From NCBI RefSeq assembly GCF_016918765.2, contig NZ_CP092104.1, positions 2,728,001 to 2,792,000 of the forward strand: a stretch of DNA of 64,000 nt, in the 5' to 3' direction. Below are positions 3,338-40,226 of the stretch, piece by piece. This DNA is from Flagellatimonas centrodinii (GTDB lineage: Bacteria; Pseudomonadota; Gammaproteobacteria; Nevskiales; Nevskiaceae). The notes beneath the pieces were generated by a model, which made no database searches, had not been told where the DNA came from, and was given only the letters and a program-made list of their open reading frames with translations. The position numbers and the translations under genes were made by a program. How positions within the stretch are numbered: the stretch's first letter is position 1; each line of letters starts with the position of its first letter.

Positions 3338-4750
3338 TCAACCTTTGGGCGTCAGCTTGACCATCAGTTTGGAGTAGCCTCGCACGAAGTTCGACTGAAC
3401 CCGCTCGGGTTCGCCGACGACTTCGATCTTGTCGAAGCGCTCGAGGAGTTCTTCCCACAGAATGCGCAGCTGCAATTCGGCCAGACGGTTGCCCATGCAA
3501 CGGTGGATGCCATAGCCGAACGAAAGATGGTTGCGCGCGTCCTTGCGGTCGATGATGAAGTCATCAGGGTTGTCGAATTTACGCTCATCCCGATTGCCCG
3601 AGGCGTACCACATCAGAACGCGATCTCCCTTCTTGATGGTCTGGCCACGCAGTTCTACGTCCTGTGTCGCCACCCGGCGCATGTGCGCCAGCGGAGTTTG
3701 CCAGCGGATGATTTCCGAAACCATGTTGGGAATCAGCTCCGGGTTGGCCTTGAGCTTGGCGAATTCTTCGGGGAATTGATTCAGAGCCAGCACGCCGCCA
3801 CTCATCGAGTTACGCGTGGTGTCATTGCCGCCAACGATAAGCAGTGCGAGATTGCCGATAAACTCCATCGGACGATTGATCATGTCCTTGGTATCGTCGC
3901 CGCTCTGCAGCAGGCTGATCAGATCAAAACTGGGCGCTTCACCGGCCGCACGTCGTGCCTTTTTGTCGCGCCACAGCTGGGAAAAAGCCCAGGCCATATC
4001 TGCGGCGGCATCGAACATGTTGTCTTCATCGTCAAACTCGCCACCGGTCGCTGCTGTGGTGCCGGCCATACGATCCGACCAGTCAACCAGCTTCTGACGC
4101 TCCTCGTACGGAAAATCCAGGAGTGTGGCTAGCATGCGGCCCGTCAGCTCCTTCGATACCGCCGAAACCCAGTTGAATGGTTGATCGAGGGGCAGGTTGT
4201 CGAGCACTTCCCCGGTGCGCTGGCGGATGAGCCCTTCCATTTCCTTAAGGTTCTGCGGCGCCACCACGCCCTGCACAGAGCGGCGCTGCACGTCATGCTT
4301 GGGCGGGTCCATGGCGATGAACATTTCTACCGGCATCCCTTCCGGAAAGTCACCCAGCACGATAATCGGTTCGGAGGAGAACAGCCCATGGTTCTTGTCC
4401 ACGAACAGGATGTCCTCGTAGCGCGTCACCGACCAGAAAGGGCCGAAGGGGCTGTTCTTCTGATAATGAACCGGCGCCTCGTCACGCAGGCGCTTGAAGT
4501 AGGCCCGCCATTGGTCCTGCCGGTACAGAAACGGGTTGCTGGTGTCGATGTCCTCAAGCGCCAACGTGTTGACATCGGGAACCGGGGCTTCGACGAAGTG
4601 GACCGGCGGGCGCCGCGGGCCGATCACCTTCTTCTTGGCCCTCACCAGCATCTTCAGCGCCCGGATCTGCAGGTGCATCGGCACCACTCTGGATGTGGCG
4701 TTGACCAGTTTGGTCTGGACTACATCGATCGTCTGCAATTCTGTTGACAT
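3338..4750 (-). CDS. Cytochrome P450 of the CYP153 (terminal alkane hydroxylase) family
   Basis: This 470-residue P450 carries the I-helix oxygen-activation motif GGNDTTRNS (307-315), the ExxR pair EIIR (346-349) and the heme-binding loop FGYGIHRCMG with Cys418. The LIVGGNDTTRNSMSGGV stretch is characteristic of CYP153, which hydroxylates the terminal carbon of medium-chain alkanes, fatty acids or cyclic terpenes. There is no membrane anchor, as expected for this soluble class. It is the middle gene of a leftward operon, 15 bases after a [2Fe-2S] ferredoxin that is its likely electron donor and 18 bases before a truncated GMC oxidoreductase. No ferredoxin reductase gene is present in the window. 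Expression is probably controlled from operator A at 5146-5183. Confidence 0.93.
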   Translation of the reverse strand: MSTELQTIDVVQTKLVNATSRVVPMHLQIRALKMLVRAKKKVIGPRRPPVHFVEAPVPDVNTLALEDIDTSNPFLYRQDQWRAYFKRLRDEAPVHYQKNSPFGPFWSVTRYEDILFVDKNHGLFSSEPIIVLGDFPEGMPVEMFIAMDPPKHDVQRRSVQGVVAPQNLKEMEGLIRQRTGEVLDNLPLDQPFNWVSAVSKELTGRMLATLLDFPYEERQKLVDWSDRMAGTTAATGGEFDDEDNMFDAAADMAWAFSQLWRDKKARRAAGEAPSFDLISLLQSGDDTKDMINRPMEFIGNLALLIVGGNDTTRNSMSGGVLALNQFPEEFAKLKANPELIPNMVSEIIRWQTPLAHMRRVATQDVELRGQTIKKGDRVLMWYASGNRDERKFDNPDDFIIDRKDARNHLSFGYGIHRCMGNRLAELQLRILWEELLERFDKIEVVGEPERVQSNFVRGYSKLMVKLTPKG

Positions 4751-4765
4751 GGCGTCCTCCAGCTC

Positions 4766-5086
4766 TTACATCTGAAATTCGGGCAGGTGAACGGTCATGC
4801 CGTCCATCGCCTCGGTAGTTTGGACTTGGCAGCCCAGGCGAGAGGTTCTTGCCAGCTCCGGGGTCATCGACAGTATCTGCTGTTCGTCGTCACCCGGCGC
4901 ACCGGTCTTGTCGTACCACTCGTCCGCGACGATCACGTGGCAAGTGCCACAGGCACATTCCCCGCCACAGTCCGCATCAATGCCGGGAATGATGTTCTCC
5001 ACGGCGATTTGCATCAGTGAGGCGCCAGCCTTGAATTCAACGACATGTTCGGTGCCGTCGTGCTCGATAAAAGTAATTTTGCCCAC
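4766..5086 (-). CDS. [2Fe-2S] ferredoxin, electron donor to the CYP153
   Basis: The 106-residue adrenodoxin/putidaredoxin-type ferredoxin has cluster ligands Cys40, Cys46, Cys49 and Cys86 in the pattern DCGGECACGTCHV ... RLGC. It is the first gene of the leftward operon, its stop lies 15 bases from the CYP153 start, and GGAG precedes the ATG. Ferredoxins of this type shuttle electrons from an NAD(P)H reductase to P450s. The reductase partner must be encoded elsewhere. Family assignment is firm; the partnership is inferred from gene order. Confidence 0.93.
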   Translation of the reverse strand: MGKITFIEHDGTEHVVEFKAGASLMQIAVENIIPGIDADCGGECACGTCHVIVADEWYDKTGAPGDDEQQILSMTPELARTSRLGCQVQTTEAMDGMTVHLPEFQM

Positions 5087-5145
5087 TGCGCTTCTCCTGT
5101 CGGTTTTGACTGCGACTTAGAGTGACTGTGTGCCAGACCTCCGAG

Positions 5146-5183
5146 GAGGACATTTCTTGCCATCATGGGGGCATTTCAAGACA
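5146..5183. promoter_or_regulatory. Operator A: 38-bp AraC-type site before the ferredoxin-P450 operon
   Basis: This 38-bp block is repeated in reverse complement at 6274-6311 with 34 of 38 bases identical. Inside it, GGACATTTCTTG and GGGCATTTCAAG form an imperfect direct repeat about two helical turns apart, the usual arrangement of AraC-family half-sites. It lies about 60 bases upstream of the ferredoxin start and 25 bases upstream of the AraC gene start, so it could both activate the operon and autoregulate the regulator. Confidence 0.75.
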
Positions 5184-5207
5184 ATAGGGAGGTCCGTGGA
5201 GGGCGTT

Positions 5208-6251
5208 ATGGCAACGACCAGGCAGGTGGCGGGCTTGCAAAATTCCGAGGCTGACATTCCGTCGAGCTACTCACGTCTGATCGCCCGTGAACTGGGGCTT
5301 ACCGCGCGACAACTGGCCAAACTGTTGCGCGGCACCGGGATTGACACTCAACAGTTCCAGACTGGTGACAGCCTGCTTACGAGCGCCCAGCAGGTTCAGA
5401 TTCTGCGCAACGCGCTGGCGCTGTCTGGCCAGCCGGACTTTGGATTACGGCTGGGTGAGCGCCTGACCCCGGCCACGCATGGCGCGATGGGGTTTGCCGT
5501 TTGCAGTAGCCCCGACTTGCTCACCGCTCTACAAACGTTTCACAAATTCCTGCCCACGCGTGCGAGCTTCATCCACCTGCGCTTGCAACAGGTGGAAGAC
5601 CACATGGAGTGCTTGTTGGATTTCCAGGTACAGCTGGATCAGGACGTTGCGCGTTGCTTGGCGGAAACGGCGGTGAAGGCATTTTTTGCAACCGGCGAAT
5701 TTATCGCCGGCCGGCCCTTTGATGAGGCCGAGGCCTGTTTTGTCCACGCGGCGCCGGCTTACCGAGCCAACTACCCGGCGTATTTGCCCGGGCGAGTTTA
5801 CTTCGGCTGCGATCAGTTGAAGCTCAGACTCCCTATGGCGTTGTGCAGGATGCCGAACGTCTCTGCCAATAGTGAGAACTATGGCCTAGCCTTGCAGCAG
5901 TGCGAGTCCATGCTCGCTCGACTTCAGAGCCGTGACCCGGACTATCGGACCCGGCTCAAGAAAATGATGCTGTCCCACCCGCCAGGCACGCTCTGTGAAG
6001 AAGAAGCGGCAGCCGCCCTGTTCATGAGCAAACGTACCCTGGCGCGTAAACTCAAACAGGAAAACAGCGGTTTTCGGGAAATTCGCGAGGAGATTCTGTC
6101 CCGCCAGGCCGCAGGCTATTTGCGTGACAGCCAAATGTCCGTAGAGGCCATTGCCGCGCTGATGAATTACCACGACACCGCGAGTTTCAGGCGTGCCTTC
6201 AAGCGCTGGTTCGCTGTTCCGCCTGAACAATACCGACAAAGCATGGGTTAG
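5208..6251 (+). CDS. AraC-family transcriptional regulator of the P450 cluster
   Basis: The 347-residue regulator has an N-terminal effector domain of the arabinose-binding/OruR type (about residues 30-220, with LRLGERLTPATHGAMGF) and a C-terminal double HTH (AAAALFMSKRTLARKL and SVEAIAALMNYHDTASFRRA). The ATG at 5208 is preferred over an upstream in-frame GTG at 5130 because GGAGGG stands six bases before it. It is divergent from the ferredoxin-CYP153 operon and codirectional with the acyl-CoA operon. Near-identical sites lie on both sides of it, which makes it the probable activator of both operons, responding to an alkane or fatty-acid type inducer. The inducer is not known. Confidence 0.88.
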   Translation: MATTRQVAGLQNSEADIPSSYSRLIARELGLTARQLAKLLRGTGIDTQQFQTGDSLLTSAQQVQILRNALALSGQPDFGLRLGERLTPATHGAMGFAVCSSPDLLTALQTFHKFLPTRASFIHLRLQQVEDHMECLLDFQVQLDQDVARCLAETAVKAFFATGEFIAGRPFDEAEACFVHAAPAYRANYPAYLPGRVYFGCDQLKLRLPMALCRMPNVSANSENYGLALQQCESMLARLQSRDPDYRTRLKKMMLSHPPGTLCEEEAAAALFMSKRTLARKLKQENSGFREIREEILSRQAAGYLRDSQMSVEAIAALMNYHDTASFRRAFKRWFAVPPEQYRQSMG

Positions 6252-6273
6252 CCCTCCTCCAGAACACAGGGCG

Positions 6274-6311
6274 TGTCTTTAAATGCCCCCATGCTGTCAA
6301 AAAATGTCCTC
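6274..6311. promoter_or_regulatory. Operator B: 38-bp AraC-type site before the acyl-CoA operon
   Basis: This is the reverse complement of operator A with four mismatches. It lies 109 bases upstream of the first gene of the rightward operon. Relative to its target it has the same orientation as operator A has relative to the ferredoxin operon. This symmetry argues that one regulator switches on both halves of the cluster. Confidence 0.75.
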
Positions 6312-6419
6312 GTCGGCGTCCCGCCGTCTACCTAACCTGAACTTCTTGAAATCGGCATTCGCTTCGGTCGTTCCCGCTCGGCTGCGAGTGCCCCCGCTCT
6401 GAATCGAAAGAACGCTCAC

Positions 6420-7097
6420 ATGAAGGCAGACACCCGCGAGTACTTGGCCCCCGGCGATTTTATTGACAGCGACCACCCCGACGTCCAAGCCTTCGCCCGC
6501 AACCGCGCCGGGGAAGGCGATGACCGGCAGCGCGCCATCCGGCTTTACTATGCAGTCCGCGATGAAATCCGTTATGACCCCTATGCATTTTCGCTGGAAC
6601 CCGACCTGTTACGCGCCAGTGCAACGTTGGCCGCTGGCCGTGGTTATTGCGTACCCAAGGCCGTGTTGCTGGCGGCCTGCGCCCGGGCGACGGGCATCCC
6701 CGCTCGCATCGGCCTGGCGGATGTAAAAAACCACCTGGCCAGCCAACGCCTGCTGGCATTGATGCAGACGGACATTTTCTATTACCACGGCTATACCGAG
6801 TTTTGGTTGGATGGGTGCTGGGTCAAGGCCACCCCGGCATTCAACATCGAACTGTGCGAACGCTTCGGCGTCAAGGCACTGGAATTCGACGGCCGCGAGC
6901 ATGCGCTCATGCACGAGTTCGACACCGCCGGGCGCCGCCACATGCAGTATCTGACCGATCACGGCCCCCGCGCCGATCTGCCCTACGCCGAACTGGCGGC
7001 GGCTTATCGCAAACATTATCCGCGTCTGTTGGCTGCGCCCGATGCACTTGGCGGCGACATGGCGGCGGAGATGGAACAGGACAGGGCTCGGCGCTGA
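6420..7097 (+). CDS. Transglutaminase-like protein
   Basis: The 225-residue protein has a transglutaminase/protease-like core. The nucleophile Cys77 lies in GRGYCVPKAVLLAACARATG and His123 in YYHGYTEFWLDG, while the position where the family usually has Asp-Pro-Thr reads KATPAFN. Proteins of this group are common next to fatty-acyl and P450 catabolic genes, but their substrate is not established. It may be a hydrolase or acyltransferase rather than a protein crosslinker. It is the first gene of the operon behind operator B, and its stop overlaps the next start (TGATG). Confidence 0.75.
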   Translation: MKADTREYLAPGDFIDSDHPDVQAFARNRAGEGDDRQRAIRLYYAVRDEIRYDPYAFSLEPDLLRASATLAAGRGYCVPKAVLLAACARATGIPARIGLADVKNHLASQRLLALMQTDIFYYHGYTEFWLDGCWVKATPAFNIELCERFGVKALEFDGREHALMHEFDTAGRRHMQYLTDHGPRADLPYAELAAAYRKHYPRLLAAPDALGGDMAAEMEQDRARR

Positions 7098-7582
7098 TGG
7101 CCGGGACAGGCAACCTGGCGGGCCATGATCCAGTTGCTGTGGCGCGGCAGTTCGGCGAGCAGGTGCCCCACAGCCGAGATCTCGGGATGCAGGTGTTGGC
7201 GATGGAAGCAGACCATGTCTGCATGCGACTGGTGCCGGGTCCTGAACTGCGCGCCGAGGATGCAGCTGAGGAACTCTGTACCAGCGTGCTGTATTCGCTG
7301 GTGGACTCGGCCTGCGGGCTGGCGGTGTTCGCCGCGCTTCAGGAATTGAAGCCCATAGCCACGCTGGATTTGCGCATGGATTACCTCCGGCCGGCCGCTA
7401 GCGAACGTGTCCTGGTGGCCACCGCCCGCTGTCATCACTTGACCGATGACGTTGCGTTCGTGCGCTGCGAGGTGTCTTCCGAGGAAGAGGATGGCCCGGT
7501 TGCTATAGGTAATGCCACCTTCATGCGCGGCACCCAGGGCAAGCGCGTCGAGACGAAGGCTTCGCGGGGCGATGCCGTATGA
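7097..7582 (+). CDS. Hotdog-fold (PaaI-like) protein lacking the HGG motif
   Basis: The frame is open further upstream, but the ATG at 7097 overlaps the preceding stop and gives a 161-residue protein of normal thioesterase length. The hotdog pattern is clear (SLVDSACGLAVFAAL, then LDLRMDYLRP). The usual HGG at the start of the central helix is replaced by TSVLYS, although the Asp of LVDS is kept. The next gene is a second hotdog protein that does have HGG. The two may form a heteromer acting on a CoA thioester; the substrate is unknown. The TGATG and ATGA overlaps suggest translational coupling. Confidence 0.7.
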   Translation: MAGTGNLAGHDPVAVARQFGEQVPHSRDLGMQVLAMEADHVCMRLVPGPELRAEDAAEELCTSVLYSLVDSACGLAVFAALQELKPIATLDLRMDYLRPAASERVLVATARCHHLTDDVAFVRCEVSSEEEDGPVAIGNATFMRGTQGKRVETKASRGDAV

Positions 7583-8070
7583 GCGAGACAGCCGGTCCAA
7601 TGTCATCGAGGACACTCGACCAGGATGTGTGCGCCGATACGCGGGCCACTTGGCAGAAGTTGCTGGAACGCATTCCCTACGCGCGGCACCTTGGGCTCGC
7701 AATCCATCAGAGCGGCACCGGTATGGAAGTCCATTTGCCGTATCGCGATGCGCTGATAGGCAACATCATGTTGCCGGCCCTGCATGGCGGCGTGATCGGC
7801 GGGTTGATTGAGATTACGGCGCGCGTAGCCGCGCAAAGCCGCGATGCACAGGCTCGCCGCCCCCGCATCCTCGACTGCAACGTGGACTACCTGCGTTCCG
7901 CGCGGGCGCGGTCCACCTACGCCGCTGCCGAAATCGTCCGCCAGGGCCGGCGTACGACGCTGGTCCATGTCAGCTGCTGGCAGGACCGGGCCAGCACACC
8001 CGTCGCCCATGGGCGCGTACAACTGCTGTTCGAGACCGCCCCCGGCGGTAAAACCAGGGAAGAACAATGA
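7579..8070 (+). CDS. PaaI-family thioesterase-like protein
   Basis: The 163-residue hotdog protein contains LPALHGGVIGGLIEITARV, the HGG motif at the start of the central helix followed by an acidic residue (Glu in place of the commoner Asp), and the second conserved strand CNVDYLRSARAR. It overlaps the preceding hotdog gene by four bases (ATGA) and the next gene by four bases. The likely activity is hydrolysis of an acyl-CoA thioester. The pairing with a partner lacking HGG is unusual and may indicate a two-subunit enzyme. Confidence 0.75.
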   Translation: MSETAGPMSSRTLDQDVCADTRATWQKLLERIPYARHLGLAIHQSGTGMEVHLPYRDALIGNIMLPALHGGVIGGLIEITARVAAQSRDAQARRPRILDCNVDYLRSARARSTYAAAEIVRQGRRTTLVHVSCWQDRASTPVAHGRVQLLFETAPGGKTREEQ

Positions 8071-9569
8071 CGCCTGATAGCAACACGCCGGTGCTGGTCG
8101 GCGCCGGCAAGATCACCGCGCGCGAACCCGATGACCAGCGCACACCGATCGGTCTGATCGCCGAGGCCGCCCGGGCCGCGGCGGCGGACTGCGGCATCGA
8201 CGGCGCCTTGCGCCACATCCAGTCGTTGACCTGTCTCAACATCCTGGCGCCGGCCTATCCCGACGCGCCGGCCAGTCTGGCCCAAACGCTGGGTATCGAC
8301 CCCGGCGAACGCTTCTACACGCCCATCGGCGGCAATATGGGCCAAAGGCTGGTCGGTTACTATGCCGACCGCATCGCCGCCAGCGAACTCGATTGCGCGC
8401 TGATCGCGGGAGGCGAAGCGCTGGCCACCCAGATGCGCGACAAGGGGGCGGGCCTGTCCGGGGTGATCGACACCGAAGCCGGCGAGGGTACCCGGCTGCT
8501 CGGCGACGACCGTGAACCGACCAACGCCGCCGAACAACGGCACGGGCTGAATATGCCCGTGCAGATCTACCCACTGTTCGAGCAGGCCTTGCGCGGCCAA
8601 TACGGGCGCGACCCGGCCGCGCACCGGCAGGCGCTGGGCAAGTTGTATGCCGGTTTCAACGCCGTCGCCATGAACAACCCAAAGGCCTGGCGCCGCGAGC
8701 CCTTGTCCGCAGCTGATATTGCCGAGCGCACGCCGGAAAACCGCATGGTTGGCGCGCCTTACACCAAGCGCATGAACGCCATCATCGCGGTGGACCAGGC
8801 GGCCGCGCTGGTGATGATGTCGGCCGCCAAGGCTCGAGCTCTGGGGATCGACCCTAGGCGTTGGGTGTATCCGTTGGCCGCGGCGGATGCCAGCGATCGC
8901 TGGTTCGTTTCCGAACGGGCGGAGCTATCCCGCTCCCCGGCGATCGCCGCTTGCGCCCGCCGCCTGTTCGAGGCTACTGGGCTGGCCGTAGATGACATCG
9001 ATTATCTCGATCTGTATAGCTGCTTTCCCAGCGCGGTGCAGATGGCGCGCAACGCCCTGGCCATCGCCGAAGATGATCCACGGCCGCTCACCGTCACGGG
9101 CGGTCTCGCGTACCACGGTGGGCCCGGCAGCAACTATTGCACCCACGCCATCGCAGAAACCATGGCCCGTATCCGCGCCGAGCCCGACGCTCACGCACTG
9201 GTCAGCGGCGTGGGGTGGTACATGAGCAAGCATTCGCTGGGGCTGTACGGGTCGCGGCCACCGGCCGGCGGCTGGCGGCGGGTCGACGCGGCGGCCGTGC
9301 AGGCGGAAATCGACGCCGGCCCCGGTGTAGAGGTTGCGGCGCAGCCGGAAGGTGCCGGGCGGATCGAAACCTATACCGTCATGCACGATCGTGACGACCG
9401 GCCCGCCCAGGGCATTGTCCTGGGCCGCCTGGACGACGGCCGCCGATTCATCGCCAACACCCCTACCGACCCGGACCTGCTCAATGCCATGACCGACGAG
9501 GAGTTTCTCAACCGCGCCGGCCACGTGCGCAGCAACGGTCAACGCAATCTGTTCACCCCGAGAGGGTGA
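8067..9569 (+). CDS. Thiolase-like protein (TLP1-type acetyl-CoA acetyltransferase homologue)
   Basis: The 500-residue protein of the thiolase superfamily keeps the overall order of a thiolase, including the C-terminal GGLAYHGGPGSNYCTHA with its His. The segment that should hold the nucleophilic Cys reads YTPIGGNMGQRL (about residues 84-95) and has none. A C-terminal extension after about residue 410 (IETYTVMHDRDDRPAQGIVLG...) looks like the extra domain of type-1 thiolase-like proteins described in mycobacteria. It probably binds acyl-CoA and may act in a non-classical C-C bond step rather than ordinary thiolysis. It is translationally coupled to the hotdog gene before it. Confidence 0.75.
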   Translation: MTPDSNTPVLVGAGKITAREPDDQRTPIGLIAEAARAAAADCGIDGALRHIQSLTCLNILAPAYPDAPASLAQTLGIDPGERFYTPIGGNMGQRLVGYYADRIAASELDCALIAGGEALATQMRDKGAGLSGVIDTEAGEGTRLLGDDREPTNAAEQRHGLNMPVQIYPLFEQALRGQYGRDPAAHRQALGKLYAGFNAVAMNNPKAWRREPLSAADIAERTPENRMVGAPYTKRMNAIIAVDQAAALVMMSAAKARALGIDPRRWVYPLAAADASDRWFVSERAELSRSPAIAACARRLFEATGLAVDDIDYLDLYSCFPSAVQMARNALAIAEDDPRPLTVTGGLAYHGGPGSNYCTHAIAETMARIRAEPDAHALVSGVGWYMSKHSLGLYGSRPPAGGWRRVDAAAVQAEIDAGPGVEVAAQPEGAGRIETYTVMHDRDDRPAQGIVLGRLDDGRRFIANTPTDPDLLNAMTDEEFLNRAGHVRSNGQRNLFTPRG

Positions 9570-9586
9570 GACGAGGAGGATAGACA

Positions 9587-10771
9587 ATGAGTGCAGTGCC
9601 CGAAATTGAGTTCGACCAGGCCAGCGTGGCCCAGCGCATGCGTGACATCCGCGAGGCCGCCCGCGGCGTGAGCGAAGGCTTTAGCAGGGAGTACATGCGC
9701 GAGTGCATCGATAATCACCGCTTTCCACAGGAGGCCTGGGAAGCCCTGGGCGAGTACGGGTTGCTCGGCATCACCATACCGGAGGAATTGGGCGGTTCAG
9801 GCGGTGGACAAGTGGAACTGGTCGCGCTGATGGAGACCTTGGCCGAGGCCGGCATGGTGCTGCCCATGCTCCTACTCACAGGCTTCGCGCGGGTACCCAT
9901 TATCCGCAACGGCACCCCCTGTCAGATCGAACGTTTCGTCAAACCGACGATCAGTGGCGCCGAGAAGTTGTGCTTTGCCATCACCGAACCGGACGCCGGC
10001 ACCAACAGCTTTGCCATGAGTTCGCTGGCGACGCAGGATGGCGATCGCTATCGGCTGACCGGGCGCAAGGTTTTTATCTCCGGCGCTGCGGACGCCGACC
10101 GCATGCTGGTCGTGGCGCGCACCCAGAAGGCCGGCGAGGTCGAGCGCCGCACCGAGGGCATGTCGTTGTTCGTCGTTGATACCAATGCGCCCGGGGTGAA
10201 ACTGCAACCCCTGAATATCGACGTCGGCTGGCCGGAGCGTCAGTACCTGGTTTTCTTCGACGACGTCGAACTCGAGGCGGACCGCTTGATCGGCCATCCG
10301 GGACAGGGGTTGGCCGGCATGTTCGAGGCACTAAACTCTGAACGCTTGCTCGTGACCGCCATGTCCGTGGGACTGGGCAACTACGCGCTTAAAAAAGCCG
10401 TGGCCTACGCCAACGAGCGCAAACCTTTCGGCGTACCCATCGGCAGCTACCAGGCCCTGCAGCATCGGCTGGCCGAGGCCAAGGCCGAACTGGAGGCCGC
10501 GCGGCTGATGATGATCCAGGCCGCCGCGACTTTCGATGCGGGCGGCAATGCCGGCGCCCACGCCAACATGGCCAAGTTGCTAGGCTCGCGCGCCGCGGTC
10601 AAAGCCGTTGAGGCCGCGCTGCAAACCCACGGCGGCTACGGTTTCGACCGGGACTACGACATCATCACGCTGTGGCCCTCCGCTAGGCTGATGGAGATCG
10701 CGCCCATCAACAACGAAATGCTGCTCAACTACATCGGCGAACATGTCCTCGGCCTGCCCAAATCCTACTGA
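9587..10771 (+). CDS. Acyl-CoA dehydrogenase (operon-linked)
   Basis: The 394-residue flavoprotein has the ACAD signatures FAITEPDAGTNSF (FAD/substrate motif) and THGGYGFDRDY. The C-terminal segment that carries the catalytic Glu in medium-chain enzymes reads EIAPINNEML and lacks it. A candidate base of the LCAD/isovaleryl type is the Glu of LNSERLL. GAGGAGG stands just before the ATG. It would introduce a 2,3-double bond in an acyl-CoA, passing electrons to ETF. It follows the thiolase-like gene by 17 bases and overlaps the start of the hydrolase gene, so it belongs to the same operon. Confidence 0.88.
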   Translation: MSAVPEIEFDQASVAQRMRDIREAARGVSEGFSREYMRECIDNHRFPQEAWEALGEYGLLGITIPEELGGSGGGQVELVALMETLAEAGMVLPMLLLTGFARVPIIRNGTPCQIERFVKPTISGAEKLCFAITEPDAGTNSFAMSSLATQDGDRYRLTGRKVFISGAADADRMLVVARTQKAGEVERRTEGMSLFVVDTNAPGVKLQPLNIDVGWPERQYLVFFDDVELEADRLIGHPGQGLAGMFEALNSERLLVTAMSVGLGNYALKKAVAYANERKPFGVPIGSYQALQHRLAEAKAELEAARLMMIQAAATFDAGGNAGAHANMAKLLGSRAAVKAVEAALQTHGGYGFDRDYDIITLWPSARLMEIAPINNEMLLNYIGEHVLGLPKSY

Positions 10772-11666
10772 GACGCCCCGCGTGATCGAGCGCGGCGGAT
10801 TCACGGCCCCTGACGGCCGGGACATCGCCCTGTGGCGCTGGCCGCATTCGCCCGGGCGTCCCACACTCCACTGGGCGCATGCGACGGGCTTCCATGGCCG
10901 CCTGTACAAACCGCTGCTCGACGAGTTGGCGCGCGATTGCAATGTGCTGGCCTGGGACATGCGCGGCCACGGCGCCAGCGCCGGGGCGGCGGACATGGCG
11001 ACATTCCGCGGCTGGGAAACCTACTACCAAGACCTCACCGCCTGGCTGCAAAGCCTGGATGAGCCGGTCTGGCTGGCCGGCCATTCCATCGGCGCCACCA
11101 CCAGCCTCATGGCCGCCGCCCGCCGGCCGGAGATGGTGCGGGGCCTGATTCTGGCGGAACCCGTAATCATGGATCGCTGGCAGGGCTGGCAGTTATGGTT
11201 GGCGAAGTTGCTTCGCCAGTCGTACCGCTTCTCTCTCGCCGCCGGCGCGGCACGTCGGCGCCGGGAGTTCGACTCGTATGCCGCAGCCCTTGACAACTTT
11301 CGTGGCCGCGGAGGTTTCAAAACCTGGCCCGAGGCCTGGCTTGAAGCCTACGTCCAGCATGGCCTTGTGCAAAGTGGTGATCGCGTTCGCCTGGCCTGCG
11401 CGCCAGAATGGGAGAGCACTACCTTCGCCCATACCGAACACAACCCCTGGCCCGGCATCCGTCGGCTGCTGTGTCCTGTGATTGTGCTTGCTGGGGATCG
11501 CGCATCAACCTTCTCGCCCAAGGCGCGCCAACGCTTGAGCACCATGCTACCTATGGCTCAGGTGGACGCCCTCGCCGAAACCACTCATTTCCTGCCCATG
11601 GAGCAACCGGGCGCGGTTCGCGATGCCGTCCTGCAGGCGATGTCGCCCAAATACAACCGAATGTGA
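10743..11666 (+). CDS. Alpha/beta-hydrolase
   Basis: The 307-residue hydrolase has the oxyanion region HWAHATGFHG, the nucleophile elbow GHSIG, and a C-terminal catalytic His in ETTHFLPMEQPG. The ATG at 10743 overlaps the dehydrogenase gene by 29 bases, and a downstream GTG at 10782 is an alternative start. It is the last gene of the operon behind operator B and ends 20 bases before the IS remnant. It could hydrolyse an ester, lactone or ring-cleavage product in the pathway. The substrate is unknown. Confidence 0.8.
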   Translation: MSSACPNPTETPRVIERGGFTAPDGRDIALWRWPHSPGRPTLHWAHATGFHGRLYKPLLDELARDCNVLAWDMRGHGASAGAADMATFRGWETYYQDLTAWLQSLDEPVWLAGHSIGATTSLMAAARRPEMVRGLILAEPVIMDRWQGWQLWLAKLLRQSYRFSLAAGAARRRREFDSYAAALDNFRGRGGFKTWPEAWLEAYVQHGLVQSGDRVRLACAPEWESTTFAHTEHNPWPGIRRLLCPVIVLAGDRASTFSPKARQRLSTMLPMAQVDALAETTHFLPMEQPGAVRDAVLQAMSPKYNRM

Positions 11667-11948: not shown

Positions 11949-13001
11949 TTAGTCCAGCAGTGTCGCTACGTCCTCCGCACGGAGGTGGGTATAACGCTGC
12001 AGCATTGAAAGGGTCTTGTGCCCCGTTACCTTGGCGAGCGCCATGGTGTTGCCGTTGAGCTTCTTCGCGATCCTGGAGGTGCCTTCATGGCGAAGGTCAT
12101 GCAGCCGCAGGTCGTGAAGGCCGAGCCGATCAATCACGCGGTTGAACGCTTGCGTGTAGCTGCCGGGCTTCATTCCAAAGATCAGCTCTTCGTGGTCCCC
12201 GTCACGCCTTGGGAGTGATTGCAACACAGCGGTGGCTCTGGCCGAGAGGGGGGCGTCGCGAGGATCACCGTTTTTCGTATCGCGACACCGGGCAATCCTC
12301 CGCTCGAAGTTGATGTCCTTCCACCTCAGATTGCAGACTTCGGCGCGGCGCATCGTTGTTTCGACGGAAAACTCGATTGCGGCGGCCAGCTTCGGGGATT
12401 TCGAGCTGCGGGCTCCCGCGAGGATGCGTTCGAACTCGTCGCCCTCGGTCCTTCGCTCCCGCCCCTTACTTTGCGGGGGTAGACGGACATGCTGGACCGG
12501 GTCGCCGCCTGGAAGCACTAGCCCCCACTCGCGAAGAGCGTGTCGGATCGCCGCTCGAATCAGCGCAAGGTCGTGCCGGACCGTCTGACCGGAGATCTGT
12601 CGCGTGGTCTTACCCTTAGGACCACCCAGCCGCACCGTACTTTTCAGCCGCAAGTCGCGGAACTGCGCAAGATGTTCGGGCGACAGCGAAATCAAAGGTA
12701 GCTTTGCAATGTCGTGCTTGAGGATCCGCCGTGCTCGATTCTGGAGGTCGCGGGCCGACTTCTTCGTCGGAGCCACTTCAGTTGAGTACCTTTCAAGGAG
12801 TTGGCCGAGGGTTGTGTTCTCGGCCATCGCCGTGCCTCGCCAAGCACCTCGCTCGATGTCTCGCTCCGTCTCGCGAGCCCAGGTCATAGCGTGGTTCTTC
12901 ACGTCGAACGACTGGTACAGTCGTGGTGCGCCTCGCTTGGTTACGGTCACGTCGTAACGGACCTTTCCGGAGGGAAGTACGCGCTTGCGGATGGAGGCCA
13001 T
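11949..13001 (-). CDS. Tyrosine-type site-specific integrase
   Basis: The 350-residue recombinase has an N-terminal arm-binding domain, a SAM-like core-binding domain and a catalytic domain. Numbered from an upstream TTG at 13052, the catalytic residues are Arg235/236 (TMRRAEV), His318-x-x-Arg321 (LHDLRHEGTSR), His345 (GHKT) and the nucleophile Tyr354 (RYTH). The ATG at 13001 (MASIRKRVLPSGK) is the likelier start. It ends 13 bases from a tRNA-Arg 5' half and starts about 95 bases from a tRNA-Arg 3' half at 13097. It presumably integrated the island into a tRNA-Arg(UCU) gene at the anticodon loop. Confidence 0.93.
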   Translation of the reverse strand: MASIRKRVLPSGKVRYDVTVTKRGAPRLYQSFDVKNHAMTWARETERDIERGAWRGTAMAENTTLGQLLERYSTEVAPTKKSARDLQNRARRILKHDIAKLPLISLSPEHLAQFRDLRLKSTVRLGGPKGKTTRQISGQTVRHDLALIRAAIRHALREWGLVLPGGDPVQHVRLPPQSKGRERRTEGDEFERILAGARSSKSPKLAAAIEFSVETTMRRAEVCNLRWKDINFERRIARCRDTKNGDPRDAPLSARATAVLQSLPRRDGDHEELIFGMKPGSYTQAFNRVIDRLGLHDLRLHDLRHEGTSRIAKKLNGNTMALAKVTGHKTLSMLQRYTHLRAEDVATLLD

Positions 13002-13096
13002 AGGTCGATGCTCGCTGCGGATGGAGTGCGTATAGGCAGTTTTGCACTCCAATAAAACACAACGTTATCATATAGAAGCGCCTGAAAGGCCAGCAG

Positions 13097-13142
13097 CCTT
13101 CTAAGCGGACGGTCGCAGGTTCGAATCCTGCCGGGCGCACCA
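13097..13142 (+). pseudogene. tRNA-Arg(UCU) 3' half: right attachment site of the island
   Basis: From CCTTCTAAGC (anticodon loop, TCT) the sequence continues through the T arm GCAGGTTCGAATCCTGC, the acceptor CGGGCGC, discriminator A and encoded CCA. The upstream bases do not supply a D arm or a matching anticodon stem, so the gene is split exactly at the anticodon loop. The 5' half should lie at the other end of the island, outside the window, unless the island was rearranged. This marks the boundary between island and chromosome. The tRNA end is continued by 178-bp repeats. Confidence 0.85.
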
Positions 13143-13666
13143 CACGATCTCGCGGCAGTGCGCTTTTCGAGGTATTCAGACCTTGATGTGGCAGCATTCG
13201 AATCTGCGACAGACCCACTTCAGGTTCGACAACCTGACATCGTCAGGTTGCGCCGTCGCCGTCAGGCGACGCCCGCAGGGCGAGGTGCCAGGCACCTCGG
13301 CCATCCTGCCGGGCGCACCACACGATCTCGCGGCAGTGCGCTTTTCGAGGTATTCAGACCTTGATGTGGCAGCATTCGAATCTGCGACAGACCCACTTCA
13401 GGTTCGACAACCTGACATCGTCAGGTTGCGCCGTCGCCGCCAGGCGACGCCCGCAGGGCGAGGTGCCAGGCACCTCGGCCATCCTGCCGGGCGCACCACA
13501 CGATCTCGCGGCAGTGCGCTTTTCGAGGTATTCAGACCTTGATGTGGCAGCATTCGAATCTGCGACAGACCCACTTCAGGTTCGACAACCTGACATCGTC
13601 AGGTTGCGCCGTCGCCGTCAGGCGACGACCGCAGTGCGAGGTGCCAGGCCCCTCGGCCATCCTGCC
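13125..13666 (+). repeat. Three tandem 178-bp tRNA-derived repeats (rtT-like locus)
   Basis: Units start at 13125, 13303 and 13481, and the first 8 bases of a fourth start at 13659 (3.04 copies). Each unit opens with the last 18 nt of the tRNA-Arg (ATCCTGCCGGGCGCACCA), and units differ at only a few bases. In unit 1 three strong hairpins can be drawn: 13230-13250 (9-bp stem), 13254-13271 (7-bp stem, 4-nt loop) and 13281-13299 (9-bp stem, 1-nt centre). The E. coli tyrT locus is known to carry a 178-bp unit repeated 3.14 times, each with the tRNA 3' end, from which rtT RNA is released. The sequence here is not obviously homologous to it. Confidence 0.9.
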
Positions 13667-13744
13667 GAAGTTCGGCGCGCTTGAGCGCCACGTAGATCGA
13701 GTGGCTGCGATACTCTGCTCAACCAGGTCACCCAAGGTCCCGAC

Positions 13745-14716
13745 ATGAATGCTCCCGACAAGCCGGCGGATGAACACAAGCGTCTGGAAACCCTTCGGTC
13801 GCTCAAGATTCTCGATACCTCGCCGGAGGAGCGGTTCGACCGCCTGACCCGGTTGGCGAAGCGGCTATTCGGCGTGCCAATTTCGCTCATCAGTCTGGTC
13901 GACGATGATCGTCAGTGGTTCAAGTCGAACATGGGACTCTCCGCGTCCGAGACGCCGCGTGACATCTCGTTCTGTGGGCATGCCATTCTCGGCGATGAGG
14001 CTTTCATCGTGCCTGATGCAGCGCTGGATGCGCGGTTCAGCGACAACCCGCTGGTGACGGGTGACCCCAATATCCGCTTCTATGCCGGATGTCCGTTGAC
14101 CGTCTCGAATGGCAGCAAGATCGGAACCCTGTGCCTGCTGGATCGACAGCCGCGCGTCTTGAGCGACGACGACCGTGACCTGCTCGCCGATCTCGCGGCC
14201 ATGGCCGAGCAGGAGATTGCCGCCGTACAGCTGGCGACCATGGACGAGCTGACCATGCTCTCCAACCGACGGGGATTCGTTGCCCTGGCGCAGCACGCGA
14301 TCAATGTCTGCAAACGCCAAGGCAAGGCGGTCGCATTGCATTTCTTTGACCTCAACAAGTTCAAGCAGATCAACGACCAGTTCGGCCATGCGGAGGGGGA
14401 CCGGGCGCTGACCGTTTTCGGTGCGGTGCTCCGCAAGGTCTTCCGCGACTCGGATGTGGTCGGACGTCTGGGGGGTGACGAGTTTGTCGTGTTGCTCACC
14501 GACGTTGATAACGACGGTTCGGCGCAGGTATTGGATCGGTTGCGGGACGAACTGGAACAGATCAACGCCCGCGATCAACGGGGTTACCGAATCCAGTTCA
14601 GCGTTGGCACGGCCATGTTTGACCCCGACAAGCATGCGTCGATCGAGGACCTGATGGGTGAAGCCGATGATGTGATGTACCGGGCCAAGCGCAATCAGGC
14701 ACCCGGCACCCCGTAG
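13745..14716 (+). CDS. GAF-GGDEF diguanylate cyclase
   Basis: The 323-residue soluble protein has a GAF sensor (about residues 25-160, with MGLSASETPRDISFCGHAI) followed by a GGDEF domain (165-318). The active-site motif GGDEF is at 243-247, and an RxxD inhibitory site (RDSD, 234-237) sits five residues upstream, so it should make c-di-GMP and be product-inhibited. The usual DxLT motif appears as MDELTMLSNRRGF. It is convergent with the Pycsar-like membrane protein gene. A short GC hairpin (14708-14722) holds its stop codon in the loop but has no T-run. The signal sensed by the GAF domain is unknown. Confidence 0.93.
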   Translation: MNAPDKPADEHKRLETLRSLKILDTSPEERFDRLTRLAKRLFGVPISLISLVDDDRQWFKSNMGLSASETPRDISFCGHAILGDEAFIVPDAALDARFSDNPLVTGDPNIRFYAGCPLTVSNGSKIGTLCLLDRQPRVLSDDDRDLLADLAAMAEQEIAAVQLATMDELTMLSNRRGFVALAQHAINVCKRQGKAVALHFFDLNKFKQINDQFGHAEGDRALTVFGAVLRKVFRDSDVVGRLGGDEFVVLLTDVDNDGSAQVLDRLRDELEQINARDQRGYRIQFSVGTAMFDPDKHASIEDLMGEADDVMYRAKRNQAPGTP

Positions 14717-39314: not shown

Positions 39315-40226
39315 TCAGGTGTTGCCGTCTGTCGGTGGCGGTGCGGGCGGGGCTTCGGCAGCCCGCTTGCGCTTGCCGCGACTGGTGGCGAGAAAGGCAC
39401 GCGATTCCAGATTGGGCCGCAGCGATTGCACTGCGGTGACGGTTTCGCGGGCTCGGGTGCGCATGGCGGCCGCGACCTGGCGTGCCTGCGTCTGCGCCGC
39501 AGTGGTCTCGCGTTTGACCGTCGATTGGGCGCTGGCGACCCGATTCTGCACCGAGGTGCGGGCGCGGTCTGCTGTGGCCTTGGCCTGGGTGCGGGCCTGA
39601 GCCAGCGTCGTTTTCGCCTGGGTTCGGGCCGCTTCGGCGCGCGCCTTCACGTGGGTGGCGGCCCGGCTGGCGGGAGAGGCAGCCTTGGCGGCGGCAGCCG
39701 GCTTCGCGGCTGCGGCGGCAGGTTTGGCGGCGGGTGCGTTGGCCTTGGCCGCCGGCTTTGCGGCGGGCTTCGCGGCCTTGGCCGGTGCCTTCGGCGCGGG
39801 CTTCGCCTTCGATTTGGCGGATGCAGCCGGCTTCGCTGCGGGCGTTTTGGCCGTCGGCCTGGCCTTGGCAGCCTTCGGCGCGGCCTTGGCAGGCGCCTTC
39901 TTGGCCTTGGGGGCGGCCTTCGGCTTTGCCTTGGCAGCAGCCGTCTTTGGCTTTGCTGCCGGTTTGGTCTTCTTGGCCGGTTTGGCGGCGGTCTTCACTT
40001 TGGCGGCGGCCTTGGGTTTTGCGGCCACCGGTTTGGCCGCAGCCTTGCGAGCGGTTGCGGGCTTGCTGGCCTTGGCCGGGCTGGCCGATTTCGGCTTGCT
40101 CGCAGGCTTGTTCGCTGCGGATGGGGCAGGGGACATGCCGCGAGCGCGCTTGGCGACGGACTCCGCGGCCTTGCGGATGGCAGCCAGCGGGCTACGGCTC
40201 TTTGAAGCGGTTTTTGCGGCAGGCAT
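39315..40226 (-). CDS. Histone H1-like Ala/Lys/Pro-rich protein
   Basis: The 303-residue protein is made almost wholly of Ala, Lys and Pro in imperfect repeats of the type KPAAKPKAAAK across residues 40-190. A helical Ala/Arg/Thr/Gln segment follows (about 190-275), and the tail is short and proline-rich. The composition is like eukaryotic H1 tails and Pseudomonas AlgP/AlgR3, which bind DNA non-specifically. It probably compacts or organises the nucleoid, possibly also as a phasin-like helix. The repetitive coding sequence is prone to length change. It stands alone, upstream of fadBA on the opposite strand. Confidence 0.75.
   Translation of the reverse strand: MPAAKTASKSRSPLAAIRKAAESVAKRARGMSPAPSAANKPASKPKSASPAKASKPATARKAAAKPVAAKPKAAAKVKTAAKPAKKTKPAAKPKTAAAKAKPKAAPKAKKAPAKAAPKAAKARPTAKTPAAKPAASAKSKAKPAPKAPAKAAKPAAKPAAKANAPAAKPAAAAAKPAAAAKAASPASRAATHVKARAEAARTQAKTTLAQARTQAKATADRARTSVQNRVASAQSTVKRETTAAQTQARQVAAAMRTRARETVTAVQSLRPNLESRAFLATSRGKRKRAAEAPPAPPPTDGNT

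Follow-up and report, generated by a model that had tools for sequence, protein, structure and literature searches.

Homology of a 178-nt repeat array behind a degenerate tRNA-Arg gene of Flagellatimonas centrodinii to the tRNA-linked repeats of Escherichia coli

Three 178-nt repeats behind a degenerate tRNA-Arg(TCT) gene of Flagellatimonas centrodinii very probably form an array of tRNA-linked repeats (TLR or RtT), the family that in E. coli includes the RtT units of tyrT (RF00391). The array lies in the window analysed here, a stretch of 64,000 nt, and adds a member to a family that is known but unexplained. The E. coli TLRs have been on record since 1978; published passages of the study that named the family tRNA-linked repeats count 22 copies at ten loci in this species, state that the function was unknown in 2021 and report the later retraction of a claim made for tyrT in 1991 (Stenum et al., 2021; PMC8144298). 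As the window shows, TLRs are not confined to enteric bacteria. They also carry an antisense segment that follows the sequence of their own tRNA, a concrete and testable feature for the old question of their function.

TRF placed a tandem array at 13125–13667, with a period of 178, about 3.1 copies, 98% matches and a score of 1058, which upholds the preliminary description of three near-identical 178-bp units repeating the last 18 nt of the tRNA. The units start immediately behind the CCA end of the tRNA-Arg(TCT) remnant, on the same strand, and their copy number falls within the range of one to five seen at TLR loci. Units 1 and 2 differ by one base, and units 1 and 3 by three bases over the 169 nt present in unit 3. 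The 18 nt of the tRNA 3' end return unchanged (18/18) as the ends of units 1 and 2; the last copy, at 13659–13667, stops after 9 nt. The array and its surroundings comprise the following features:

13078..13142, + strand: tRNA-Arg(TCT) remnant, the host gene, with acceptor, anticodon loop and T-arm kept and the D-arm missing
13125..13142, + strand: tRNA 3' end repeated in the array (18 nt, ATCCTGCCGGGCGCACCA)
13143..13320, + strand: TLR unit 1, ending with the 3'-end copy at 13303–13320; core 13188–13320
13321..13498, + strand: TLR unit 2, ending with the 3'-end copy at 13481–13498; core 13366–13498
13499..13667, + strand: TLR unit 3, incomplete, with 9 nt of the 3'-end copy left
11949..13052, − strand: tyrosine integrase gene (PF00589, E 6.3e-25), context outside the repeats, abutting the remnant

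At the DNA level the array is the only place in its own genome where the unit occurs. At the model level, the genome holds one diverged relative behind tRNA-Ser(GGA) (L161; G000:C1:3422521-3422644, − strand) and one further match that is not significant (E 0.3). TRF also found short tandem repeats with periods of 18–33 at 39687–40025 of the window, perhaps a repetitive coding region.

The host tRNA is degenerate rather than intact, because ARAGORN calls no tRNA at this gene and the Rfam tRNA model matches 13078–13139 at 33.8 bits. The absence of the D-arm and the state of the other parts were read by eye, by comparing the remnant with the intact tRNA-Arg(TCT) genes of two related genomes (G012 and G050). 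It had been claimed that the 5' half of the tRNA was lost to an integrated island. An integrase gene does adjoin the remnant, but the latter keeps a 5' start, GCGCCTG, that by eye may form pairs with CGGGCGC on the 3' side of the acceptor; plain loss of the 5' half is therefore not shown. As for the other end of the island, the window outside the array holds no match longer than 12 nt to 13050–13145. The single 12-nt match sits in an inverted, intact tRNA-Arg(TCT) gene at 1770–1846 (− strand). This gene differs in sequence from the remnant, adjoins an rve-type transposase gene (1939–2361) and may substitute for the function of the remnant; in the 120 kb adjoining the window on its left side, ARAGORN found no tRNA-Arg gene. 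A group of catabolic genes at 3338–11666, left of the integrase, encodes a cytochrome P450, an AraC-type regulator, a thiolase-like protein, an acyl-CoA dehydrogenase and a hydrolase.

The Rfam RtT model, suggested earlier as a check on the units, gave a divided answer. RF00391 matches the window units neither at its gathering cut-off (45 bits) nor at E 1, but reaches 43.6 bits (E 2.5e-5, below the cut-off) with related units behind tRNA-Arg genes. Used alone it is too narrow for the window units, and we therefore built three covariance models. R1 was made from 57 units of many genomes, the window being one row; R2 from 34 hits, none of them from the window (33 from other genomes, two of these fetched twice, and one from a tRNA-Ser locus of the same genome); and R3 from 13 E. 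coli units, whose alignment was fitted with R1 (window 1/57 rows). With E-values that are rough for all three models, R3 ranked the two full window units first in the 64 kb (unit 2, 46.8 bits, E 1.7e-10; unit 1, 45.5 bits, E 3.9e-10), gave unit 3 24.6 bits (E 1.8e-4) and reached at best E 0.035 outside the array. R2, which is free of window sequence, scored units 1, 2 and 3 at 56.4, 57.3 and 34.1 bits (the two full units having E-values of 1e-13 at the lower and 1.8e-13 at the higher), found nothing below E 0.15 elsewhere in the window and had a best match of E 0.02 in the 120 kb leftward on the same chromosome. R1 gave the core of unit 1, itself in the training set, 66.3 bits. When R3 was run on loci from other genomes and from the genome of the window, 33 places in 20 loci matched at E 0.1, with a best E of 2.5e-19. 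Homology to the E. coli TLRs is shown by these matches, and the earlier impression that the sequence looks unrelated to tyrT is refuted by the R3 match to the window units.

Relatives can also be seen without a model. A blastn search with one unit at E 0.01 gave matches, many of them short, in 27 of 100 related genomes, its own included. The strong matches immediately follow intact tRNA-Arg genes in G035 (5.8e-18), G012 (8.6e-10), G050 (1.2e-7) and G027 (2.7e-7), and tRNA-associated repeats, which had been proposed as something to look for in related genomes, do exist there.

The unit RNA is predicted to fold at −85.3 kcal/mol, compared with −64.2 ± 4.4 kcal/mol for 200 shuffles (z −4.78), in line with the strong folding first claimed for it. 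Within each unit the following parts can be told apart:

13190..13210, + strand: antisense of the tRNA V-loop/T-arm in unit 1, 21 nt of complementarity with two mismatches
13368–13388 and 13546–13566, + strand: antisense in units 2 and 3, placed by the 178 period
13223..13229, + strand: GGTTCGA, the 5' half of the T-arm in sense orientation, ahead of the body; invariant or almost invariant across the 57 aligned units
13230..13298, + strand: body of unit 1, its hairpins taken from family covariation
13230–13250, + strand: hairpin H2, which the minimum-energy fold of the unit core contains too
13254–13271, + strand: hairpin H3, also in that fold
13272–13280, + strand: hairpin H4, CCCGCAGGG, absent from that fold
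13282–13298, + strand: hairpin H5, also in that fold

Across the family, the 3' end most often repeats A58 to A76 of the host tRNA, and it does so exactly over 19 nt in 88 of 176 units. The copy measures 17–20 nt in 112 of them, and 128 have at most two mismatches in the last 19 positions. The body is preceded by GGTTCGA and followed by AATCC; these make up both sides of a T-loop, into which the body therefore looks set. Upstream of the body lies the T-arm antisense, to which many Gln and Tyr units add antisense of the acceptor 3' strand.

Covariation was assessed on 57 aligned units, leaving out one with N, one without GGTTCGA and one with a deleted body (L050). RNAalifold on a MAFFT alignment yielded just 6 pairs and was rejected as a source of structure; the structure was instead written by hand from single folds, and a control was run against the bias that this brings. 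In the aligned units 83.1% of cells were paired and 28 of 37 pairs had changed on both sides, with a covariation score of 0.310 against 0.116 for shuffled and at most 0.080 for slid structures. The closing helix, formed by the antisense and the 3' copy, had changed on both sides in 9 of its 11 pairs. The covarying helices of the family are thereby shown. In the minimum-energy fold of the window unit the closing helix is absent and the 3' copy pairs with the H4 region; the helix is present in the minimum-energy folds of two other loci (L102 and L047) and of E. coli tyrT.

Mismatches in the body helices are strongly asymmetric, 273 being G-A/A-G and 13 C-T/T-C, and speak for folding of the + strand. 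Those in the closing helix lean the opposite way (C-T/T-C 135 against G-A/A-G 80). Other strand tests were weak and were set aside: fold energy was lower on the + strand in 43 of 57 units, G-U pairs were fewer on the + strand (95/2335) than on the − strand (140/2357), and G-U pairs stood at 89/4725 against 52 A-C in the body helices and at 200 against 165 in the closing helix, the body count being lower than expected of an RNA and the alignments having been fitted to an RNA model.

The antisense follows the host. We compared it with tRNAs of all isotypes, taking, per tRNA gene, the first unit whose 3' copy was exact over 15 nt or more (59 units), together with the window unit; the search region was truncated for some short units (L105, L106). 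In 48 of these 60 units the antisense scored its own tRNA above every other-isotype tRNA. The summed score was 764, and none of 5000 permutations reached it (maximum 563). For Arg, Ser and Pro units the match extends into the V-loop, where 148 of 230 letters agree against at most 140 in 5000 permutations, a small margin that partly reflects isotype differences (53 of 90 host genes were placed and 46, those of Arg, Ser and Pro, permuted). In the six Gln units placed, the V-loop match was not above that to other isotypes (1.00 against 1.06). None of the units inspected showed a partner for the V-loop antisense inside the unit itself. Host-matched sense and antisense copies are thus shown across the family. 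The antisense is not universal, because by eye a 5S-linked E. coli TLR has no clear copy.

Because the antisense tracks its host tRNA, it may act on that tRNA, either in cis or in trans. A speculative extension, in our estimate unlikely to hold as a whole, is that TLRs are host-matched anti-tRNA RNAs in more than one class of the phylum, in which a switch between pairing with itself and pairing with the tRNA would control tRNA maturation or fate, the bodies having moved among tRNA genes, the flanks having been refitted to each host and upstream copies having brought a body into the T-loop of entire tRNA 5' parts. Under this reading the unit could also close into a tRNA-acceptor-like minihelix with CCA.

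The distribution of the family is broad. Among 370 sampled genomes of the class, RF00391 finds 75 at E 0.01, with 25 above its cut-off; R1 finds 153 at E 0.001, 138 of them with a best E of at most 1e-6. In a phylum sample R1 finds 60 of 299 genomes at E 0.001, of which 28 belong to other classes (23 of these to one family, f192), a few of the matches being weak (E above 1e-4). For numbers of units these surveys give lower bounds, with 8 to 11 candidates scored per genome. As a positive control, R1 found 13 places in six regions of E. coli, at tyrT/V, argVYZQ, the lysT group and rrnB. With 153 of 370 class genomes matched, function can be sought by comparison as well as in E. coli, and the wide distribution and the host-tracking antisense together make it more testable.

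The fetched loci gave 217 model hits, which collapsed to 214 units. A same-strand tRNA lies at most 1.2 kb upstream of 176 of them, at 110 distinct host tRNA genes. Assigned to the nearest tRNA, which can be wrong, these units belong to Arg (64), Gln (45), Ser (35), Tyr (22), Pro (4), Glu (3), Val (2) and Thr (1); matches in later loci are positioned behind Trp, Asn, Gly and Lys tRNA genes. The association with tRNA is partly built in, because loci were fetched by hits and the models carry tRNA 3'-end letters, and some weak matches are real tRNA genes (L135 and L116, E about 4e-4). The 38 units without such a tRNA include the three window units, several at contig starts, chimeras upstream of a tRNA gene, cases of tRNAs that are degenerate or were missed, and a small number of weak or false matches. 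In one genome of another class (G509), two equal-scoring matches (L181 and L182, E about 1e-7) lie on separate contigs with no tRNA in the fetched DNA around them, possibly a dispersed relative or a false match.

A TLR unit may be pictured as an RNA module with a multi-hairpin body in a copy of the host tRNA 3' end and T-arm antisense upstream. The antisense and the 3'-end copy could close the RNA into a helix like a tRNA acceptor, with an NCCA tail. At a usual locus, polymerase would read through the terminator behind the tRNA and make the TLR RNA, from which tRNA 3'-end processing at each CCA copy would cut out small RNAs. We infer such transcription and processing, as well as an antisense action on the tRNA, and lean, by analogy, towards read-through with processing as the mechanism of the family, because it is described for E. 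coli RrB in published passages (PMC8144298). The order at the tRNA-Ser locus of the same genome supports it: by eye, the tRNA is followed by a terminator-like hairpin, the unit and a second terminator-like hairpin. In the window, normal tRNA-driven transcription and processing may be lost because the tRNA is degenerate. A simple consensus scan found no promoter-like or terminator-like site at 12950–13800. Given the degenerate tRNA and the lack of a promoter-like site in the scan, the array may be a silent relic whose units are kept similar by recent duplication or conversion.

A different origin for the family's layout is possible, if rather unlikely: the unit could be a mobile mini-element whose body recombines into the T-loop of tRNA copies, with repeated insertion and excision leaving arrays and with the RNA as a by-product. 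The body does stand between TTCGA58 and AATCC, followed by a 3' copy that is most often of 19 nt. In one genome (G099), Gln and Val bodies are 94% identical, with flanks that match different tRNAs. We compared bodies among 113 of the 214 units, then among 82, one per host tRNA, from 40 genomes. Bodies at different tRNAs of the same genome have a mean identity of 0.698, which 3 of 2000 permutations within amino acid reach, although gene conversion or shared genome base composition could explain some of this likeness.

Chimeras fit the mobile reading as well. Thirteen tRNA genes were flagged, of which two are ordinary neighbouring tRNA genes (L032, L034) and one is doubtful (L116). This leaves 10 of 173 tRNA genes (L120, L126, L146, L106, L084, L075, L067, L068, L049 and L055) at which the real gene is preceded by a copy of its 5' portion as far as TTCGA, which runs on into a TLR body in the T-loop and then AATCC. 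Some copy the preceding 60 nt too, the CCA end is missing in the six loci read out, and L067 holds three tandem copies. In the published passages available, such chimeras are not mentioned.

Against a mobile element, however, no recombinase or long ORF was seen as part of the unit, and published passages place an E. coli member behind 5S rRNA, which has no T-loop (PMC8144298). The tree of the 82 bodies follows tRNA identity, needing 26 changes where shuffles of amino acids within families need 34.8 on average (0/300), so the history is partly vertical. It follows the bacterial family as well, with 31 changes, compared with an average of 43.1 for shuffles within amino acid (0/300). Transposition as the sole history was rejected, as the tree follows both. 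The bodies seem to have been inherited in part at their own tRNA and in part exchanged or converted from one tRNA to another.

That the RNAs titrate CsrA, as proposed for RrA, RrB and RrF in E. coli, is quite improbable for the family. CsrA and Hfq are published to bind RrB (PMC8144298, in the passages available), and csrA genes occur in all nine genomes searched, with four matches in the genome of the window. However, the three window cores contain no GGA motif (3' copy excluded). Among 128 of the 176 family units, those with at most two mismatches in the 3' copy, GGA is below expectation (mean 2.13 against 3.14 in shuffles); 108 of the 128 carry the motif at least once, compared with 97.5% of shuffles, and of 48 Arg-linked units roughly one in three lacks it. 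These family counts argue against a general CsrA role, and we set aside CsrA titration as a general TLR function. The position of some csrA genes was recorded separately: in E. coli (L192) csrA lies beside the serV-argV tRNA group, where R1 finds TLRs; in the genome of the window one csrA match (G000:C1:2167488) adjoins tRNA-Arg and tRNA-Ser genes (L034); and G001 has a csrA match not far from its weak TLR match.

A chance tandem duplication of the tRNA 3' end and trailer, functionless and unrelated to tyrT, is very improbable: tandem duplications form readily, the three units hardly differ and the tRNA is a remnant, but the R3 homology, the host-matched antisense and the compensatory changes contradict it. 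A coding repeat like E. coli tpr is hardly credible even though ORFs of 119 and 107 aa cross the array and tpr is annotated inside an E. coli unit, since 178 is not a multiple of 3, which puts successive units in different frames, and the family conserves helices (57 units).

The array in the window can be set beside the named members of the family and their relatives. With the RtT units of tyrT/tyrV (rttR, RF00391) it shares the place behind a tRNA, the 178-nt period and the tandem copies, and the preliminary description was right that the architecture is that of tyrT/rtT: the K-12 units have a 178-nt period and a 19-nt copy of the tRNA 3' end, so that a copy of 18–19 nt occurs in both. The T-arm antisense spans 21 nt in the window and 22 nt at tyrT. 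Common to the window and the E. coli RtT units are GGTTCGAC and a hairpin series with CCCGNAGGG, and in K-12 tyrT the parts have the same order and the body letters are similar. The window array differs in its host, a degenerate tRNA-Arg(TCT) rather than tRNA-Tyr, and in the letters of its body hairpins.

RrA, RrB and RrF of E. coli, behind 5S rRNA, have a homologous body (rrB matched by R1 at a rough E of 3.1e-9), which by eye sits in a split copy of the host 3' end, as in the window. Their host is rRNA and by eye they have no clear antisense copy, whereas the window array has a tRNA host and antisense; published passages give them GGA motifs and binding by CsrA and Hfq, unlike the window units, which lack GGA. 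They are described there as transcribed by read-through of the first terminator, processed and bound by Hfq and CsrA, with rrB conserved within Enterobacteriales (PMC8144298). The open literature gave us no TLR survey beyond Enterobacteriales and Pasteurellaceae, though one may exist. Parts of other reports list RtT in Pectobacterium RNA-seq tables (PMC4710047), note a tandem G-A motif in RtT (PMC7657543) and liken some enterobacterial attenuator-like elements to rtT (PMC2965389). Arrc20 and Arrc21 of Actinobacillus, likened here by description, are Rfam RtT members at tRNA genes and positive on northern blots; they differ from the window array in having Asn and Lys tRNA hosts and in being reported, in the passages available, to lie or begin upstream of the tRNA genes (PMC4986893).
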